Made by a program: the position numbers and the translations under genes | The notes under the pieces: model-generated | What the model was told of the DNA's origin: nothing | The model's input: the letters and a program-made list of their open reading frames with translations, nothing else | Database searches by the model: none | From: Carboxylicivirga sp. | GTDB taxonomy: Bacteria > Bacteroidota > Bacteroidia > Bacteroidales > Marinilabiliaceae | Length of the DNA stretch: 64,000 nt | Direction: 5' to 3' | Assembly (NCBI GenBank): GCA_025210475.1 | Contig: JAOARW010000080.1 | Span: forward strand, 1 to 64,000 | Shown here: in pieces, positions 41,930 to 50,593 of the stretch | Position numbering within the stretch: the stretch's first letter is position 1 | Layout: each line of letters starts with the position of its first letter

Positions 41930-44080
41930 TTATCCCCAATGGTGTTTCCACATCTCGAAAAACCGACCTTTGGTATCTGATTTTAAAGCTTCAACAGTGC
42001 CTGACTGAATTATATTTCCTTTTCCAAAAACAAAAACCTCATCAGCAATATCGATTACACTCATTCGATGTGCCACCATAATAATTGTTTTACCCTCGGC
42101 CTTAAGATCCAATATCAATTCTTTAACCACCCTTTCGGAACGGTCATCCAGAAAAGAAGTAGCTTCATCGAAAATATAAATCTGAGGATTTAGATAGCGT
42201 GCCCTTGCAATTGCCAAACGTTGACGTTGTCCTCCAGAAAGCTGACTGGCGTTTTCTCCAAGCCAGGTATATAATCCTTCCGGCATTTGCTCAATCATTT
42301 CTTCCAGTTGTAACTGCTGTATGATGTTTAAAATACGTTTTGTATCCGGTTCAGGATCGCCAAGCGCAATGTTTTCAATCACATTACCAGCGAATAATTC
42401 AATATCCTGGGGGACAATTCCAACCACCCTTCGCAGATTAAACAAATTGGCATGTGCTATATCCACCTGCCCAATTTTTATTTGTCCATGCTGCACCGTG
42501 TACAAACCTTGAATCAATGAACCTAAGGTTGATTTACCACAACCACTATCACCCAATAGAACAGAGATGGTATTGGATTTAATACGCATATCGAAATCAA
42601 CAAATAAATCCTGCTCAAGGGTATACGAGAAGTTTACTTTTGAAAAAACAATGTCATCCACATCTGCGTGCTCGATACTAAGACTTTGTTTGTTCGTGTG
42701 TTCATGATTAAGTTCCAGCAATTCAAAAAGTCGATCCATAGCTATTAGTGCACCATGAATGTTTTTATTGAAAGCTGCCAAGCGAGCAACCGGGCCAGTA
42801 AAATAAGCCGATATGGCAAAAAATGACATTAGTTCACCCGCCGATAACTCTGTTTGAATAACCAGTTCGGCTCCAATCCATAGTATCCCCAAGGTTAACA
42901 TGCGATTAATCCACTGCATGGCAGACGAAGAGAAAATATCAATCTTACCAGACTGATAAACATTCTCCAAAACTTTTAACAAACGATAATCAACGGAGTT
43001 GGAAAAGTGTTCTTCTGCTCCCATTTGTTTAATCGTCTTCACTGAACGCAAAGATTCAACCAACTGAATTTCAAGCTCTGCTGTGTCTTCCATTTTTTTT
43101 CGCTCCAGCTTTCTATTCAGTCTATTTGTAATGCTAAATAGTAATAAATAGATGGGTATAACAGCATACGAAAGTAAAGCCAATTTCCAGTTAAACATGA
43201 GCATCACCAAAAAGGCGATCACTATTATCAATGTATCAACAACCGAATCTACTGCTACCTGATTAATAAAAGTTCGGATTTTAACAGCATCGTTTACACG
43301 CGAGATTAACTCACCAATCCGAATGCTGTCATAGAATTTTTGAGGCAATTTTATTAAATGCCTAAAATAACCGGATATTAAAGTCGAATCAATATTTTGG
43401 CTGACCCGCAAAACAAACCAGGACTGAAGAACACCAATTATCATTTGCACCAGTATAATCAGAATCATGATGACTCCCATAAGATGCAAAAGATTGCGAT
43501 TATGGCCTACCAGAACAAAATCGGTTAACTTCTGAATATAAAAAGCAGTAGATAGACCCAATAGAGAAAAGGCTAAAGCACCTACTCCTGATTGCAAAAA
43601 TATACTGCGATGAGGGGAAATAACATTCCAAAAACGTTTAATATTACTTGTAGTTCTATTGCCCTTTGTAAAAGTTGATGAAGGGATCAATAAAATCACA
43701 ATGCCAGTCCATTTTTTAACAAAGTCATCAACCGGAACTTTTATAACACGGCCCAACATTGGATCCATCACCTTAAGAAACTTTTTGCCAACCTTATAAA
43801 TGACAACAAAATGATGGCTACCTGAAGGTTGTTTCAAAAATGCAATGGCTGGTAAAGGAATTTCCTTCAGATCACCGCTTTCTATTTCCACACCCTTTGC
43901 ATCAAACCCAATTTTCTCAGCTGCCTGCACCAATCCATAAGCACTGGTCCCACCTCTGTTAGTTCCTGCCTGTTGGCGAATATTCCAAAGAGGAATGCGT
44001 AATCGATAATATCGCGCTACCGAGGTTAAGCACGCTGCTCCACAATCACTAACACTATATTGCTGAACGCCTAATTTCAT
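41930..44080 (-). CDS. C39-peptidase ABC exporter (peptide maturation and secretion)
   Basis: From ATG 44080 the protein has 716 residues in three parts. The N-terminal C39 cysteine peptidase (about 1-130) has catalytic Cys13 in SVSDCGAAC, His in SGSHHFVVI and Asp in KVMDPMLG. Six membrane helices (about 140-430) follow, then an ATPase domain with Walker A GDSGCGKST, signature LSGGQRQR and Walker B IYIFDEATS. Such PCAT proteins cut leader peptides after a double glycine and export the core. The alternative ATG at 44137 adds 19 residues. It is downstream of its HlyD partner and a precursor with a GG leader. Confidence 0.92.
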   Translation of the reverse strand: MKLGVQQYSVSDCGAACLTSVARYYRLRIPLWNIRQQAGTNRGGTSAYGLVQAAEKIGFDAKGVEIESGDLKEIPLPAIAFLKQPSGSHHFVVIYKVGKKFLKVMDPMLGRVIKVPVDDFVKKWTGIVILLIPSSTFTKGNRTTSNIKRFWNVISPHRSIFLQSGVGALAFSLLGLSTAFYIQKLTDFVLVGHNRNLLHLMGVIMILIILVQMIIGVLQSWFVLRVSQNIDSTLISGYFRHLIKLPQKFYDSIRIGELISRVNDAVKIRTFINQVAVDSVVDTLIIVIAFLVMLMFNWKLALLSYAVIPIYLLLFSITNRLNRKLERKKMEDTAELEIQLVESLRSVKTIKQMGAEEHFSNSVDYRLLKVLENVYQSGKIDIFSSSAMQWINRMLTLGILWIGAELVIQTELSAGELMSFFAISAYFTGPVARLAAFNKNIHGALIAMDRLFELLELNHEHTNKQSLSIEHADVDDIVFSKVNFSYTLEQDLFVDFDMRIKSNTISVLLGDSGCGKSTLGSLIQGLYTVQHGQIKIGQVDIAHANLFNLRRVVGIVPQDIELFAGNVIENIALGDPEPDTKRILNIIQQLQLEEMIEQMPEGLYTWLGENASQLSGGQRQRLAIARARYLNPQIYIFDEATSFLDDRSERVVKELILDLKAEGKTIIMVAHRMSVIDIADEVFVFGKGNIIQSGTVEALKSDTKGRFFEMWKHHWG

Positions 44081-44160
44081 TTGTTTAAATCTATTTTCTA
44101 TGGCTATTATATGTCCCGACAAAGCAGGATGAAACATTGATTAATAAATTCAATCAGCAC

Positions 44161-45327
44161 TTAGTTTTTGGTTTCTTCTAAAGAATTAACAATTTTTGGA
44201 TTTAACCAATCATCCACATTATCAAACAAAAGCTGCAGTAATGTTCTTTGCGTGACAATAAACCGTCCTGTCAGGCTCATCCCTTTCTTCATCGATCCTT
44301 TTGAGCCATTACTCAAGCTTAAATAGTTTTTGCTTAACCGGCATCGAATCAGGTAACGGTATTCCTGATTGATCAGTGCCACATCATCTGCCACATCAAA
44401 TACGACTGCATCCAGTAAACCCCATTGGTTATAGTCATAGGTATCTATCTGCAATCGAACTTGCATTCCCTCCCTGATATAGCCGATATCCACCGGTGAA
44501 ATATAGCATTCAGCTATTAACTCCTCTTGCGGAGACAAATAAGCAATCAGTTGATTTTCGTTTATAAAATTTCCTGCCGCAACTCCTTTAAAATCGATTA
44601 TACTACCAGTAACAGGGGCTATTATAGCATATTGACTTTGCTGTTGCTTTAAACTTTCAATGCGACCTTCCAACTCATGAATTGCCAAAATATAATTTTT
44701 CCGATCGCTTTCCCATTTTGCAAAAGTAGAAGCTTTAAATGCAATAAGTTCGTCTTTGGCTTCACTTAGTTTAAATGAATCTTCTTGAAAATTGGTTAGT
44801 GGTAAAACCCCGTCAGCAAATAAGCTTGCCGTTCGTTCAAAGTCAACATTTAATTTTTTAACCTTACGCTGGCGTTTTTCTAACTCACTAATGTATTCTT
44901 CCTGCTCTTTGTTGAATAATGACGATTGAGTTCGTTGTCTCCCATTTTTTTCCAGCAATAATCCTAGATCATCAACATACATCTGCTGTATATCTACCTG
45001 ATGTTGGTTAATCTTAATCTCATTAATAATTCCCTCCTGATGTAAAACAACAAGAGTATCTCCTGTTTTTACAAAATCATTTTCTTTAATATTTACCTCT
45101 ATTACTTTTGACGTTAGAGGAGAGTTAATTGAAATCATTTTATTGACAGAAGTGATTACTCCTCTGCTTTGCACAGAAACATCGACAGAGATAAAAGGTA
45201 GTGAAGCAAATCCAAGAAAGAGCATGACAAGAATAAACCAATAAAGTTTATATCCACGATAATTGACACTTACATAGTGATGGTATCTGTCTTTCGTTAC
45301 TCTGGATTCAGTTGTTTGGTCTGGCAT
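44161..45327 (-). CDS. HlyD-family adaptor of the peptide exporter
   Basis: The 388-residue protein has one membrane helix (about 31-50), lipoyl half-motifs (SPLTSKVIEVNIKENDFV and YAIIAPVTGSIIDF), a long helical region (about 105-230) and a C-terminal barrel. It matches adaptors that pair with C39 peptidase ABC exporters. ATG 45327 (MPDQTTES) is chosen because the upstream in-frame ATG at 45369 lies inside a terminator stem. The adjacent downstream gene is the C39 exporter. Confidence 0.88.
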   Translation of the reverse strand: MPDQTTESRVTKDRYHHYVSVNYRGYKLYWFILVMLFLGFASLPFISVDVSVQSRGVITSVNKMISINSPLTSKVIEVNIKENDFVKTGDTLVVLHQEGIINEIKINQHQVDIQQMYVDDLGLLLEKNGRQRTQSSLFNKEQEEYISELEKRQRKVKKLNVDFERTASLFADGVLPLTNFQEDSFKLSEAKDELIAFKASTFAKWESDRKNYILAIHELEGRIESLKQQQSQYAIIAPVTGSIIDFKGVAAGNFINENQLIAYLSPQEELIAECYISPVDIGYIREGMQVRLQIDTYDYNQWGLLDAVVFDVADDVALINQEYRYLIRCRLSKNYLSLSNGSKGSMKKGMSLTGRFIVTQRTLLQLLFDNVDDWLNPKIVNSLEETKN

Positions 45328-45334
45328 AACAAAT

Positions 45335-45378
45335 AAAAAAGCTACTTCCCGAAAATAACATTTTTTCAAAGAAGTAGC
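45335..45378 (-). terminator. Intra-operon terminator/attenuator before the HlyD gene
   Basis: GCTACTTC (45341-45348) and GAAGTAGC (45371-45378) form an 8-bp stem with a 22-nt loop. On the minus strand it ends in six T residues. It separates the precursor and helix-turn-helix genes from the exporter genes and may lower exporter expression relative to the peptide. Confidence 0.7.
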
Positions 45379-45405: not shown

Positions 45406-45666
45406 CTACTTGGCGACCTTTACTTTTTGATATTCCATCCAGCGAATACCGTCTTGAAAATAACCCTCCTCTTCATATTCGAAGCTGTTATTTTCATTCG
45501 AAAAACGAATTATTGCACCCAATGACGTCATCATGTCCATGTAAAAGTAAAGCATACGTACAGACATGCAGAGACGCCCGGCTAACTCTATTGGTGAACC
45601 GGTTTCTTTGCGTCTGATTTCATCGTCTATCAGCGCAATTGTTTTATGTACTTCGTGTTGTGCCAA
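45406..45666 (-). CDS. Small helix-turn-helix-like protein of the peptide locus
   Basis: The 86-residue protein has a helical core with the spacing of a winged helix-turn-helix (PIELAGRLCMSVRMLYFYMD then MMTSLGAIIRFSNENN). This is followed by a short acidic/aromatic wing (FEYEEEGYF) and a basic tail. It lies between the precursor peptide gene and the exporter genes. A regulator or peptide-binding role is possible; I do not recognise a named family. Confidence 0.65.
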   Translation of the reverse strand: MAQHEVHKTIALIDDEIRRKETGSPIELAGRLCMSVRMLYFYMDMMTSLGAIIRFSNENNSFEYEEEGYFQDGIRWMEYQKVKVAK

Positions 45667-45785
45667 ATTGTTTCTTTGTTCGATTAAAATTTGAAGGAAA
45701 AGAAGGTGGAGCGGTACGAGGTGAGATAATGTGAGAATCGGGAATCTATAAGGGAAACCGTCACACCTTCTTTGTGCCTACAAAC

Positions 45786-45801
45786 AGTCTGCGTTCAGAC
45801 T
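45786..45801. repeat. Short hairpin between the precursor and helix-turn-helix genes
   Basis: AGTCTG (45786-45791), CGTT and CAGACT (45796-45801) form a perfect 6-bp stem with a tetraloop. There is no T run; it may stabilise or process the precursor transcript. The rest of 45667-45841 shows no open frame. Confidence 0.5.
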
Positions 45802-45841
45802 TCTACTAATCGGGATAGTCTTGTATATTTTATTCTTACAC

Positions 45842-45979
45842 TTAAAATTTAATTTTATCCTGAGGATAGGTCACTTTATCTTTATCATCACCACCAACTA
45901 TCTTTTTCAAAAAAGATGAATCTTTTGCCATAAACTTCTTAAATTGCTGCTGCTTTTGGGTATTTACTAGAGATTTCAT
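45842..45979 (-). CDS. Double-glycine leader peptide, probable bacteriocin/RiPP-type precursor
   Basis: A 45-residue frame from ATG 45979 to TAA 45842-45844. The leader is basic and hydrophobic (MKSLVNTQKQQQFKKFMAKD, then SSFLKKIVGG) with the GG pair at 29-30. After it comes a 15-residue charged core, DDKDKVTYPQDKIKF, without Cys, Ser or Thr clusters (one Thr, one Tyr). The pattern matches GG-type precursors of Bacteroidota exported by C39 ABC transporters, and exactly such an exporter with its HlyD partner lies downstream in the same direction. The core has no residues for lanthionine bridges, so it may be an unmodified signalling or antimicrobial peptide. Confidence 0.72.
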   Translation of the reverse strand: MKSLVNTQKQQQFKKFMAKDSSFLKKIVGGDDKDKVTYPQDKIKF

Positions 45980-46063
45980 AATGCTATTGTATTAATGGTT
46001 TCTATAGGTTAATTGCAGAAGTCGGGAATCGTAACACCTTTTTTAAAACTTTTTTTTAAAAAA

Positions 46064-49000
46064 ATGAAAAGAGTCACGCTTACCATATTGATAATGTGCG
46101 CCTTAACCCTTGTAAAAAAAAGTTATTCGCAAGAAAATAAAGATGACATAATGTATTTTTTGAATCTTTATAAGGCTCGAAACTATACTGAAGCCTCAAT
46201 CATAGGGAGTAATATTCTATCAACGGAATTAAATAGACCTAAAACTGATGATCGATATAGAATTCTATATCAAACAATCCTTTCCTATTGGTATTCTAAT
46301 AACTTAGATGGTGCGTATAAATGGACAAAGAAAACAATTGAAACTGAAAAAGATCCATTATTTAAAAGTTACATTCAATTATACAATGCAATCGTTGCTA
46401 CAGGAATTAATGACATAGAACATGCTAAAAATCAGTTTAACAAACTCTTAATCGAAAACAACCAAGTCTTTTTACAGGATTCTGTTAAAGCTAAGATTTT
46501 CCACAATCTCGCAGTAATTTATTCACGGGAAGAGAAAAATATTCTTCATTTAAAATTTCTACGAAAATCCTTTGATTTAGAACAAAAGTCATTAATCAAT
46601 AGTACAAACTACGAAAGTTATAATTTATCAGTTGAAGCTTTGGGTTCAGCTCTCTATCGAGAATATAAACAGTTTGAAGAAGCTTATCAAGTATACCAGG
46701 AAGCCTTGAGCCATCCATTTAATAAAGAAATTAGTGAGTTAAATCACTCGCTCTACCAAATATATATAGACTTACTTTTTAAAATGGGTAAGGAAACTAA
46801 GGCACAACATTACGCCGATCAGTTAATACACTTTTACAAATCAAACGATCAAATTTATCAACTGGATCTTGCCAGACTATTCCTATTTCTTTGTTTTAAC
46901 TATGATGCCCAAAATAATTATACAAAGACTATTTATTACGCTACAAAAGTTCTCTCGAACACAAGTGTATCAAATAATTCGCAAGACATTCGATCATCTG
47001 CCAATGCTACACTGACATACACATATTTTCAATTACAGCAACTTGATAAGATGAAGTATTACATCTTTAAAGACATTGAAGAGTGTAAACAAACCAATCA
47101 AAAACTATTGGCTGATGCCTACCTGTTTGCAGGAAGGTATTTGGCAAAGACATTTGAAGACGATTTAGCTTATAATTACATTGACTCAGCCAAGCACTTA
47201 TATTATAACACCCTTAATTTACCGCTAGATAGAAATATTGAAAACAATATTGCAAGAGTCTATTTAGAATTGGAACAATATAATCAGAGTCTTCATCATC
47301 TGAATAATATCAGTCAAATTCTGAAGAACAATCAAAATTACACTAACTATTATACTTGGTATAACAATTACGCAATAGCAAGATGTTATACTCACTTAAA
47401 AAAAGTTCAAGAAGCTCAAGATCTACTGATTGAAACCAATGCTGATATGCGAAAGCAATATCCGCATTTAATTGACAAATCATCAAGTATTCAAGGAAGC
47501 CAAATCGGTGGCCTTTATAGAAACGTTAATATTAACCTCGTCAAAAATCTTTACAAGCAATACGAAAAAACGAATGATGCTAAACTGCTTAGCCAGGCTA
47601 TTTCATATATTTATGAAGCAGATAATGCCCTGGAGAATCTTCGTGACAAACAAAGTTACGACCGCGACCGGCTGATTACCGGAGAAATGTATCATGAATT
47701 TACCCAGCAGAGCACTAAAGTAACAATGGCTCTTTATGAAACTACGAAGAATGAAAAATATCTTCATGAGGCATTCGAGTTCGTCCAAAAAGGTAAATCA
47801 TACGCTCTTCTTCAAGGTGTAACTGAAAAACGATACAAGCTAAATTCCGGCATCCCTATTGAAGTTATTAATGCATTGAATCATCACAAAAAGCAATACG
47901 ATTTATTCGAAGTTAGATACAACAATGCCTTATTATCTCACAAAACAGACAGTAGTCTATTAAGTGGTTTAAGTGAAAAAATGAGCTTTTGTATGGCTAA
48001 AATCGATAGTCTCAACTTTGTTATAAAAGACAACTATCCAGAATACCAGTCTGAAAAACAAAAAATGCCATATATAAGCATGCCCGAAATTCAAAGCCGG
48101 TTAGGACAAAATCAGATTATTATTGACTATTATCAAACTGATAAGGAATTATTTCGATTTACAATTTCAAAAACAGATTATCGGTGTGATATTATTCCAC
48201 TGGATCAATTTTTTAGTTCAAACCTTAAGCTTGTTATTAACCAGTTGTCAACACCTTTTATTGGCCAACACTCGCGCGAACATATCAGAGCTTTTACGAA
48301 TGCTTCATACAAACTATATAAAACCCTCTTAAAGGATATCGAACAATTAACGTATGGCAAAGAACTTATAATCGTTCCTCATTCGGAATTGAATTATCTT
48401 CCTTTTGAAACACTTCTTACAAAAGACGTCTCGTCCAGTAAGCCAAAATTCAGAGAATTTCCGTGGTTAATTAAACGTCAGATAATAAGTTACTCTTACA
48501 ATACTGCAATGTTTACTGAGTATTCATCATCACCTACCTCTTTTAATAAACTACTGGCTTTCGCACCTCATTATACAGGCTCCACTTCCATCGATTCAAT
48601 TAACTTAAATACGGAACTCTTTTTAGATACTATTCTGGTACCACTCTCTGGTGCACAAAAAGAAATACAAGCGATTGAAAAGTCATTTACTACTCAGACA
48701 TTCGCCGGTAAACAAGCTATAAAATCAAGTTTTATTGCAACCCTTCAAAATAACGATATTCTTCATCTGGCAATGCACTCACTCAATGACGAAATACAAC
48801 CTTTTAATTCGCAAATTGTATTTGCATCGGAAGATAGTATATCAGGTAGTTTTAAAGCAGCCGAAATATATAATTACGACATTAAATCTCCTTTAATTGT
48901 TCTTAGTTCATGCAGTACCGGCCGAGGACAAAAGAAGAATGGAGAAGGCCTATTAAGTATTGCGAGAGCATTTACATACGCTGGTGCCGAGGCTCAGGTA

Positions 49001-49294
49001 ATGACGCTTTGGCCAGTTAATGATGTTAGTGGAGCAGAGATTACCGAACTTTTTTATAAAGAGCTAAAAACCGGATTAAGTAAAAATAAAGCTTTACAAA
49101 AAAGCAAGTTGAATTACCTGGCTGCTGCTGATGGCATTAAATCTCATCCGTATTATTGGGCCAACTATGTGTTGGCCGGAAATACGCAGGCTATCAAACA
49201 AAAAATGCCAAAAGGTATTTTTGTTTACCTTCTGGCATTTGCACTTTTATCAGTTATACTGTTATTTATCTTCGATCGAAAGCAATCAAGTTAA
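46064..49294 (+). CDS. TPR-CHAT protein (caspase-like peptidase domain), periplasmic, membrane-anchored
   Basis: From ATG 46064 the protein has 1,076 residues: a signal peptide (ending KSYSQ), about 600 residues of helical TPR-like repeats, and a CHAT domain (about 730-1030). The catalytic dyad is visible as His905 (LHLAMHS) and Cys950 (VLSSCSTGRGQ), with the following GEGLLSIARAFTYAGA and HPYYWANYVLAGN motifs. A C-terminal membrane helix (about 1050-1070) and DRKQSS tail end it. CHAT domains are separase/caspase-like cysteine proteases. It is divergent from the GG-peptide gene (84 bp) and its stop overlaps that of the anti-sigma gene. Confidence 0.9.
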   Translation: MKRVTLTILIMCALTLVKKSYSQENKDDIMYFLNLYKARNYTEASIIGSNILSTELNRPKTDDRYRILYQTILSYWYSNNLDGAYKWTKKTIETEKDPLFKSYIQLYNAIVATGINDIEHAKNQFNKLLIENNQVFLQDSVKAKIFHNLAVIYSREEKNILHLKFLRKSFDLEQKSLINSTNYESYNLSVEALGSALYREYKQFEEAYQVYQEALSHPFNKEISELNHSLYQIYIDLLFKMGKETKAQHYADQLIHFYKSNDQIYQLDLARLFLFLCFNYDAQNNYTKTIYYATKVLSNTSVSNNSQDIRSSANATLTYTYFQLQQLDKMKYYIFKDIEECKQTNQKLLADAYLFAGRYLAKTFEDDLAYNYIDSAKHLYYNTLNLPLDRNIENNIARVYLELEQYNQSLHHLNNISQILKNNQNYTNYYTWYNNYAIARCYTHLKKVQEAQDLLIETNADMRKQYPHLIDKSSSIQGSQIGGLYRNVNINLVKNLYKQYEKTNDAKLLSQAISYIYEADNALENLRDKQSYDRDRLITGEMYHEFTQQSTKVTMALYETTKNEKYLHEAFEFVQKGKSYALLQGVTEKRYKLNSGIPIEVINALNHHKKQYDLFEVRYNNALLSHKTDSSLLSGLSEKMSFCMAKIDSLNFVIKDNYPEYQSEKQKMPYISMPEIQSRLGQNQIIIDYYQTDKELFRFTISKTDYRCDIIPLDQFFSSNLKLVINQLSTPFIGQHSREHIRAFTNASYKLYKTLLKDIEQLTYGKELIIVPHSELNYLPFETLLTKDVSSSKPKFREFPWLIKRQIISYSYNTAMFTEYSSSPTSFNKLLAFAPHYTGSTSIDSINLNTELFLDTILVPLSGAQKEIQAIEKSFTTQTFAGKQAIKSSFIATLQNNDILHLAMHSLNDEIQPFNSQIVFASEDSISGSFKAAEIYNYDIKSPLIVLSSCSTGRGQKKNGEGLLSIARAFTYAGAEAQVMTLWPVNDVSGAEITELFYKELKTGLSKNKALQKSKLNYLAAADGIKSHPYYWANYVLAGNTQAIKQKMPKGIFVYLLAFALLSVILLFIFDRKQSS

Positions 49295-50028
49295 GCACCA
49301 ATCTTTTCAAGTAATTCTTTTGCTGATTGTGAATATTTATTACCTCCTGTTTGAATTTGAACCAATAGTAATTCAGCTTCTTTAAATTCTTCTAATTTAA
49401 GATGACACAACGCTAAATACCATTTAACCTGTTCTTCATAGAAAATCGCTATCTCTTTGGTTGCTTCTAGCTTTAGTTTAGCCGTTTCAATATCTCCTAA
49501 TTCCATGTAGCATAAACCAGTAAAGAAACCTGCCAATTCCTGATTCTCATCATAAATCTCGTTAAATGAGGCAATGGCTCCATTCATATCTCCGGCCTGG
49601 TATTTTTCCATGGCTACGTCAAAGACCGAAGACTGCTCACCTCCACGGACAGTCATATCACTGCCATAAGGTGAATAGTACTCAATAAACACCTGACTAC
49701 CTGAATAATGATTATCCCTAAGCAGCCCCAGGTATGATCCCAATCCGATTACGACAATTACAGAAGCTGCCGCTAACCAATAATTCATCTTGAACGATGA
49801 TTGTTTATTGATTTCCTCCTCCATAAATTCCGAGCCAACATCTTTTAGCTGTTGTTTGAAATCAGAAAAGTCATCTTCTTGGTTCGCTATGGTATAAAGC
49901 ACCTCTTGTTGAAGCTTCATATCCTCCTTAATCCCAACATCATTAGCCATTTCAAGCTTTAATTCATTGCGATGTTCCGTGTCTAATTCGTTGGTGAAAA
50001 ACTGTAAAATCTTCTTATTATAGTCCAT
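49291..50028 (-). CDS. Probable anti-sigma protein with periplasmic TPR repeats
   Basis: The 245-residue protein has a cytoplasmic helical part (1-80), one membrane helix (about 82-102) and a periplasmic part with two or three TPR-like repeats (about 135-240; MEKYQAGDMNGAIASFNEIY, CYMELGDIETAKLKLEAT, LALCHLKLEEFKEAELLL). It overlaps the sigma factor gene by 11 nt, so the pair is coupled. The TPRs could sense a periplasmic partner such as the neighbouring TPR-CHAT protein; that is inference. Stop codons of the two genes share TTAA (49291-49294). Confidence 0.72.
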   Translation of the reverse strand: MDYNKKILQFFTNELDTEHRNELKLEMANDVGIKEDMKLQQEVLYTIANQEDDFSDFKQQLKDVGSEFMEEEINKQSSFKMNYWLAAASVIVVIGLGSYLGLLRDNHYSGSQVFIEYYSPYGSDMTVRGGEQSSVFDVAMEKYQAGDMNGAIASFNEIYDENQELAGFFTGLCYMELGDIETAKLKLEATKEIAIFYEEQVKWYLALCHLKLEEFKEAELLLVQIQTGGNKYSQSAKELLEKIGA

Positions 50029-50593
50029 ACTTCAACTCCTTATATTCCGGATCAGATTTAATCATCTCCAGCAACTTTTTGTTACACATCGATTTCCTAT
50101 TCTTTGTATAAGCCACCGAACTAAAGGCTAACTCAGTGGTTATATGCTCGTTTGTAAACCCAATTGCCACCAATCGTAAAACATCCTGACAAACCTTTTG
50201 AATTTTATTGTAATACTTTAAATACAAGCGTCGACGCTTTTCAAAAAGTTCCTTTTCGTGTATTTCACTTTCTAATTCAGGAATCTCGTCATTTAACAAT
50301 TGATAAATTGGTTTTACTTTCCTTTTTCTTAATTCATAATGCCATAAATTCTTACATACCGAAATAAAATATGTACTAAAAGTACTAACCAAAATTGGCT
50401 TTTCTTTTTTCGAATATATTGCAATAAATGCATCTTGCATCACTTGCATGGCATCATCATTTGTTCCATTATTTTCAGTAACGATGCTGCGCACCTGGCT
50501 CCACACTAGTTGCATAATGTGCTTTATCAGCTTACTATCTCTGGCGTAAACTGCATCCAACAACTCACTATCTGTATACTTTCTTTTAAACAT
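50018..50593 (-). CDS. Sigma-70-family (ECF-like) sigma factor
   Basis: The 191-residue protein has a region 2 (about 20-90) with AMQVMQDAFIAIYSK and FSTYFISVCKNLWHYELRKR. Region 4 (about 120-180) is a degenerate helix-turn-helix. The sequence diverges from typical ECF factors but keeps the order of the two domains. It leads a two-gene operon with the TPR anti-sigma protein and converges on the CHAT gene, a repeated arrangement in Bacteroidota. Confidence 0.85.
   Translation of the reverse strand: MFKRKYTDSELLDAVYARDSKLIKHIMQLVWSQVRSIVTENNGTNDDAMQVMQDAFIAIYSKKEKPILVSTFSTYFISVCKNLWHYELRKRKVKPIYQLLNDEIPELESEIHEKELFEKRRRLYLKYYNKIQKVCQDVLRLVAIGFTNEHITTELAFSSVAYTKNRKSMCNKKLLEMIKSDPEYKELKYGL

Follow-up and report, generated by a model that had tools for sequence, protein, structure and literature searches.

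A putative exported double-glycine peptide of Carboxylicivirga is inherited with an ECF sigma factor and a TPR-CHAT protein and may act as a signal

The 64,000-nucleotide stretch of Carboxylicivirga sp. DNA analysed here (contig JAOARW010000080.1, positions 1 to 64,000; 'the window') carries a 45-codon gene for a double-glycine (GG) leader peptide, which adjoins exporter genes of the C39 type and is inherited together with genes for an extracytoplasmic function (ECF) sigma factor, an anti-sigma-like tetratricopeptide repeat (TPR) protein and a TPR-CHAT protein. We propose that the locus encodes an exported signalling peptide under the control of the sigma factor, and that it works in the circuit set out below, a reading to which we give a probability of roughly 0.55. 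The conservation and coding nature of the peptide gene, the gene linkage and co-inheritance, the co-occurrence of a promoter-like motif with the sigma factor, and the covariation of a structured RNA are established by sequence comparison, by which the assignments of export and promoter are also well supported. Such joint inheritance of a peptide, its exporter, a caspase-like protease and an alternative sigma factor in these marine bacteria suggests a control circuit linked to the peptide that has not been described. The initial annotation mentioned neither the RNA nor the promoter-like motif, nor the CHAT and sigma genes.

A conserved GG-leader peptide

45842..45979, minus strand: GG-leader precursor peptide gene, 45 amino acids (frame reading, relatives, alignment, pN/pS)
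45890..45979, minus strand: leader, residues 1-30, with IVGG at its end (18-row alignment)
45845..45889, minus strand: predicted exported core DDKDKVTYPQDKIKF (alignment; relatives vary except at both ends)

The initial annotation described an ATG-to-stop frame of 45 residues with a 30-residue leader ending in IVGG. The frame is present on the minus strand and reads MKSLVNTQKQQQFKKFMAKDSSFLKKIVGG / DDKDKVTYPQDKIKF; the leader was likewise borne out, both it and the GG being kept in the relatives. No model in Pfam (expectation value E<=0.1) or NCBIfam (E<=1) matched the peptide, the latter search including the TIGR01847 bacteriocin leader family, and its own genome yielded no second copy at E<=10. 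We searched 100 genomes for relatives. Any match at E<=10 was seen in 25 genomes, and 16, the window's own included, hold convincing relatives (E<=2.6e-4, in short frames), namely all 14 Carboxylicivirga genomes (the window's own counted) and G022 and G032 of other genera (here and below, G and L numbers denote genomes and loci). Matches in the remaining nine genomes (E 0.4-1.3) lie within frames of 164-1239 amino acids, and we read them as chance.

The alignment of relatives (A1) has 18 rows from the 16 genomes, in all of which M1, K9, K15, F16, K25, K26, G29 and G30 are invariant and the leader carries a net charge of +6 to +9. GG leaders have hydrophobic residues at positions -4 and -7; here position -4 is I or V in 18/18, position -7 is L in 16 and M in 2, and position -15 is Phe throughout. 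The cores are 13-20 residues long and variable in sequence, yet 17 of 18 begin with an acidic residue (D or E) and 17 of 18 end in K-x-(K/Q/R/D)-hydrophobic. The core had been called polar and free of cysteine, which is true of the window peptide; among its relatives, however, net charge ranges from +1 to -7 and one core (L074) contains Cys.

Judged from its relatives and substitution pattern, the frame is real and protein-coding. In nine close relatives the ratio of non-synonymous to synonymous differences (pN/pS) in the leader comes to 0.26 when read in frame and to 0.88 and 1.77 when the frame is shifted either way, which indicates that the frame is selected as a protein. It is possible to imagine that the conserved element is mainly an RNA and a promoter, with the short frame incidental to both, as the noncoding DNA on both sides of the frame is also strongly conserved and the RNA described below covaries. 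We consider this very improbable, since the frame is unbroken in 18/18 relatives, is under in-frame purifying selection and keeps its GG without exception, and since distant loci hold other GG peptides at a comparable place.

The adjoining exporter

44161..45369, minus strand: HlyD-type adaptor (profile matches)
41930..44137, minus strand: C39 peptidase-containing ATP-binding cassette (ABC) exporter (PF03412, E=2.1e-32; Cys/His/Asp present)

The initial annotation placed a helix-turn-helix (HTH)-like protein, an HlyD adaptor and a C39 exporter with Cys/His/Asp downstream of the peptide, and we found all three there on the same strand. The sigma factor gene is followed by the TPR protein gene, which converges with the CHAT gene; on the far side of CHAT come the divergent peptide, then RNA, HTH, HlyD, C39 and MATE genes, an order that is widely kept. 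HlyD and C39 genes follow the peptide-HTH pair in 15/16 genomes, the exception being G032, whose locus is broken between the ends of two contigs and where no HlyD match was obtained for the following gene. In G039 the HTH gene stands between the flanking genes without peptide, CHAT, HlyD or C39 (L075). Genomes of the genus encode one to three C39 proteins each (E<=1e-10), and in 4 of the 14 (G003, G009, G010 and G012) the exporter beside the peptide is the only one at this threshold.

That the peptide is the substrate of this exporter, as first suggested from the window alone, holds on comparison and is in our view highly probable, given the invariant GG and the adjoining exporter in nearly all of the genomes. 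This reading would have been refuted had relatives that share the exporter lost the leader or its GG, and such loss was looked for and not found (GG in 18/18).

A promoter-like element

46009..46036, minus strand: promoter-like element (TGTTACG-N12-TGCAATTAA) in the divergent gap between the peptide and CHAT genes, ahead of the peptide gene; candidate promoter of the ECF sigma factor

As compared over one upstream region per genome and the second peptide region of G032, the peptide/CHAT intergenic regions share the element TTAATTGCA-N12-CGTAAC at fixed spacing, which towards the peptide reads TGTTACG-N12-TGCAATTAA. It is present in 16/17 regions, the second region of G032 being the one without it. 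Allowing at most one mismatch, we counted 94 sites in the 16 genomes that have both peptide and sigma factor (the peptide's own sites counted) against 3 for the backward control, whereas the other 44 of 60 genomes gave 4 sites against 4, which is chance level. Among 26 distinct non-peptide sites, taken from fetched stretches and thus not every site, 22 are followed in the peptide direction by an open frame that starts no more than 140 nt away and 4 have one that starts within 200 nt in the other direction, some of these frames being possibly spurious. The consensus of the 16 peptide sites and the 26 others agrees also outside the search pattern, with TTT preceding TGC.

The simplest reading, which we consider probable from this co-occurrence, is that the element is a promoter read by the co-inherited ECF sigma factor; the HTH protein may be an alternative binder. 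A shared Pfam theme for the candidate regulon was rejected, since LytTR scored above its cut-off in only 1/7 of the proteins encoded behind the candidate promoter (sub-cut-off matches in 2, no match in 4). At L125, L146, L147, L151, L160 and other loci, the genes after the element include small proteins without Pfam match and one LytTR protein.

The sigma factor, the anti-sigma-like protein and TPR-CHAT

50018..50593, minus strand: ECF sigma factor (Sigma70_r2, 25.9 bits against a cut-off of 24)
49291..50028, minus strand: anti-sigma-like membrane protein, convergent with the CHAT gene and overlapping its end
46064..49294, plus strand: TPR-CHAT protein, divergent to the peptide, with His/Cys dyad and C-terminal transmembrane segment

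The anti-sigma-like gene overlaps the sigma factor gene, downstream of it, and its modelled product has low-confidence N-terminal helices, one transmembrane segment (~82-104) and a confident C-terminal TPR domain. The model of the CHAT protein shows a TPR-CHAT fold with a His/Cys dyad and resembles Csx29 and DdvA; its N-terminus looks, by eye, like a signal peptide. The predicted topology would place TPR-CHAT in the periplasm. The CHAT domain alone found nothing among PDB sequences at E<=0.1. We think it slightly favoured that TPR-CHAT acts on the anti-sigma-like TPR protein.

All 16 genomes have CHAT and the peptide in divergent orientation. The sigma-TPR pair adjoins CHAT in 12/16; in G001, G002, G004 and G006 the pair is found at another place, among the other genes that flank it. 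The latter four genomes carry in its stead a gene of 807-829 amino acids beyond CHAT (L068:1171-3594, L069:12702-15137, L071:2155-4599 and L073:11009-13498). A defence system was considered and rejected: PADLOC gave no match for the CHAT, TPR or HTH proteins, and the exporter matched mad3 and mad8.

Recurrence in distant Bacteroidota

Five distant loci (L263, L265, L268, L279 and L280) join homologous sigma and CHAT genes to unrelated GG peptides. In other families of the order, the GG peptide is divergent to CHAT at L263 (G073) and L268 (G066) and lies just upstream of CHAT at L265 (G066), with sigma and TPR genes present in each case; L266 (G064) has sigma, TPR and CHAT and no such GG peptide. 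L279 and L280, from one genus of family f104, repeat the order of the window (sigma, TPR-type gene, convergent CHAT, divergent GG peptide, C39), with an extra gene of ~140 amino acids between CHAT and the peptide. On the CHAT tree, the association with a GG peptide needs at least two changes.

GG peptides were counted by a rule covering 28-75 amino acids, so longer ones, such as two of 79 and 83 amino acids in L207, are not included. Applied to 114 kb of DNA poor in open reading frames from 58 loci, the rule gave 10 matches, comprising the five above, one antisense frame and four TatA/cold-shock-like proteins. At L261:9320-13060 and L264:8873-12442 the sigma gene, the next gene and a C39 exporter follow one another, and the rule found no GG peptide beside them; the gene after sigma in L264 does not match the window's TPR protein.

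A proposed circuit

In the circuit that we propose, the product of the peptide gene would be a precursor, which the C39/HlyD exporter would cut behind the GG, freeing and exporting the core of 13-20 residues as a short linear peptide. The ECF sigma factor would recognise TGTTACG-N12-TGCAATTAA and start transcription of the peptide gene, and the same transcription would run through the RNA element into HTH-HlyD-C39. The membrane anti-sigma-like TPR protein would hold the sigma factor, while the periplasmic TPR-CHAT protease, facing the TPR domain of the anti-sigma-like protein, would most likely control it, either cleaving or binding it. The peptide itself would most likely be a self-produced signal that enters the circuit via the TPR domains. 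Signalling had already been suggested for the peptide; the sigma/anti-sigma/TPR-CHAT context raises the likelihood of this suggestion, which nevertheless stays at the level of a hypothesis. That the peptide is the ligand sensed by TPR-CHAT we regard as possible but doubtful.

Two observations weigh against the proposed circuit. A hydrophobic residue at leader position -12 is typical of GG leaders, if not defining, and is absent from 16 of the 18 peptides, which have Lys there (both G032 peptides have Leu); because of this, the membership of the peptide in the GG-leader/C39-export class is provisional. Furthermore, of the 26 CHAT loci linked to a sigma factor that we saw in other lineages than the window's, some of them cut by contig ends, 5 have a GG peptide. 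These 26 comprise 4 loci, 13 of 40 sigma neighbourhoods drawn from the top 41 non-window matches (G377 skipped), and 9 of 20 lower matches picked by hand, which had CHAT in 9/20 and no GG peptide.

The 21/26 loci in which no GG peptide was found would fit better if the peptide were an output, with the sigma factor answering an envelope or other cue via TPR-CHAT and the anti-sigma-like protein, and the peptide being one exported product of the regulon, for example a short surface-acting, metal-binding or weakly antimicrobial one. This would also agree with the fast evolution of the core and with the presence of the promoter element not only before the peptide but also before the first gene of the genus's second C39 system (strict at L161, L257 and L258, degenerate at L259, none at L260). 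On the other hand, distant loci place the GG peptide beside CHAT itself, the core is short, polar and Cys-free in 17/18, its C-terminal end is kept in 17/18, as expected of a recognised end, and no immunity protein was recognised among the annotated neighbours, although no search was aimed at such proteins. We therefore hold the output explanation to be rather unlikely, and prefer the signalling circuit.

A more far-reaching version of the signalling circuit, tentative and unlikely to be right in every step, is Gram-negative autoinduction. The exported GG peptide would re-enter the periplasm and bind the TPR part of TPR-CHAT, the protease would cleave the TPR anti-sigma protein, and the freed sigma factor would transcribe the peptide, the exporter and the second GG-secretion system; the RNA would set the peptide-to-exporter ratio, and the arrangement would recur in distant Bacteroidota with unrelated peptides.

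If true, the proposed circuit would provide a function and a ligand class for some of the TPR-CHAT proteins whose genes adjoin those of ECF sigma factors. It would also supply a natural pair of sigma factor and promoter that takes a synthetic peptide as input, and an additional RNA family. The peptide and the promoter element are specific enough for direct testing.

Relation to known systems

C39-exported GG peptides include ComC/BlpC-type signals and class II bacteriocins, and the best-known cases of peptide signalling that relies on C39 export come from Gram-positive bacteria and two-component systems. The window resembles these in having a small GG-leader precursor beside a C39 exporter and HlyD. 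It differs in its core, which has 13-20 residues, begins acidic and ends basic-hydrophobic, and in the co-inherited ECF sigma factor; a two-component system was not seen, and TIGR01847 was unmatched. Bacteroidetocin-type class II bacteriocin cores contain Cys, which was found in 1/18 cores here.

DdvA, which the CHAT model resembles, is a transmembrane anti-sigma factor (PDB 8rw5). The window differs in that the anti-sigma-like protein and TPR-CHAT are encoded by separate, overlapping genes, in that the His/Cys dyad is kept, and in that the system includes a GG peptide with its exporter. The Csx29/Csx30/CASP-sigma system of the type III-E CRISPR protease (PMC10028731) differs from the window, whose CHAT protein has a membrane segment and an N-terminus resembling a signal peptide, and whose candidate inhibitor is a membrane protein with one helix and a TPR domain; the seven proteins annotated at the locus include no Cas protein, and no wider search was made. 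Bacteroidetocins and Bacteroidales clusters for ribosomally synthesised and post-translationally modified peptides (PMC10352776) are alike in being Bacteroidota GG-leader peptides with C39 exporters, whereas the window has no modifying enzyme among the annotated neighbours, a Cys-free core and the sigma/CHAT context. In titles and abstract openings of the top-listed open-licence papers we found no description of a GG peptide with an ECF sigma factor and TPR-CHAT in Bacteroidota, though one may exist. The locus is a new form of GG-peptide export and possibly a new kind of signalling circuit.

A structured RNA between the peptide and HTH genes

45694..45802, minus strand: conserved structured RNA, between the peptide stop and the HTH start (folding, covariation, covariance model)

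The RNA consists of a 6-bp hairpin with an AACG loop followed by a second, long hairpin whose apical loop is rich in C (UUCCCGAUU), and the window copy has a folding z of -3.3. We found 18 copies in 16 genomes, three of them in tandem in G007; the count leaves out one match in L066 (7663-7810), which resembles hairpin 1 and is without the second hairpin. The tandem copies (L066:7361-7942, Carboxylicivirga) differ from one another by compensatory changes.

In 11 copies (10 distinct), 94.8% of cells pair and both sides have changed in 10/23 pairs, and 0/500 shuffles matched the pairing, the double changes or the covariation score. The number of further pair types was matched by 141/500 shuffles. 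Six divergent copies folded alone have double changes in 5/25 pairs (the L067 copy is outside both counts). A covariance model built from the 11 copies recovers the six divergent ones in whole genomes at E 5e-4 to 0.01. In G022 it gave no whole-genome match at E<=1 and E 0.046 in a search of the locus, and weaker matches were G010:C65 (E 0.023) and G036, G063 and G020 (E 0.13-0.6). The model (R1) also matched L280:16571-16672 (23.4 bits, E 0.006), ~8 kb from the sigma/CHAT/GG-peptide/C39 genes of G396.

No Rfam family matched the RNA at E<=1, two matches in the stretch at E 0.1 being to unrelated families elsewhere. The position of this RNA, absent from Rfam, suggests that it sets the expression of HTH and exporter relative to the peptide. 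A dispersed repeat was rejected, as a DNA search was strong (E<=4e-7) in 9/14 genus genomes solely at this locus; the other five, which form the divergent group, gave nothing below E 0.005. A simple intrinsic terminator was also rejected, none having been found. Antisense control of the CHAT mRNA, considered for the complementarity of the UUCCCGAUU loop to the stretch before CHAT, was dropped because the complementary stretch falls within the spacer that separates the halves of the promoter-like element and the divergent group does not conserve it. Inspection by eye also showed complementarity to the 5' region of HTH, chiefly among the divergent copies, and we make no claim from it.

The HTH protein and its GG-tailed relatives

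45406..45666, minus strand: HTH protein, 86 amino acids, TTG start, no C-terminal GG tail

HTH relatives elsewhere bear a GG tail of their own, so the tail possibly became a separate peptide gene. The peptide would then work with the HTH protein, its basic leader or the processed peptide tuning HTH through exporter occupancy. In accordance with this, the peptide adjoins HTH in the window, and among 25 tailed relatives (23 GG, 2 GA; tails of 8-30 residues; several are within-genus paralogs) 23 are accompanied by a C39 or HlyD gene within the DNA fetched, both misses being on contigs of 5-6 kb. Untailed HTHs outside the window's lineage, viewed in wider context, are near C39 in 1/11 cases, some in short stretches; this count omits the truncated HTH of L260, which is near C39. 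However, loci of tailed HTHs often hold separate GG peptides too, so the tail need not be the peptide's ancestor, and by eye the tails and the window core are dissimilar. We judge this origin and role of the peptide unlikely, and again favour the signalling circuit.

It is possible that the GG-tailed HTH proteins are transcription factors that are themselves exporter substrates. The tailed protein of L053 matches HTH_11 (E=1.2e-6) and, weakly, TIGR01847 (E=0.19). Tailed HTHs stand beside C39/HlyD genes at L161:6088-6423 and L161:1715-2026 (the window's own genome, on another contig), L053, L257-L259 and other loci.
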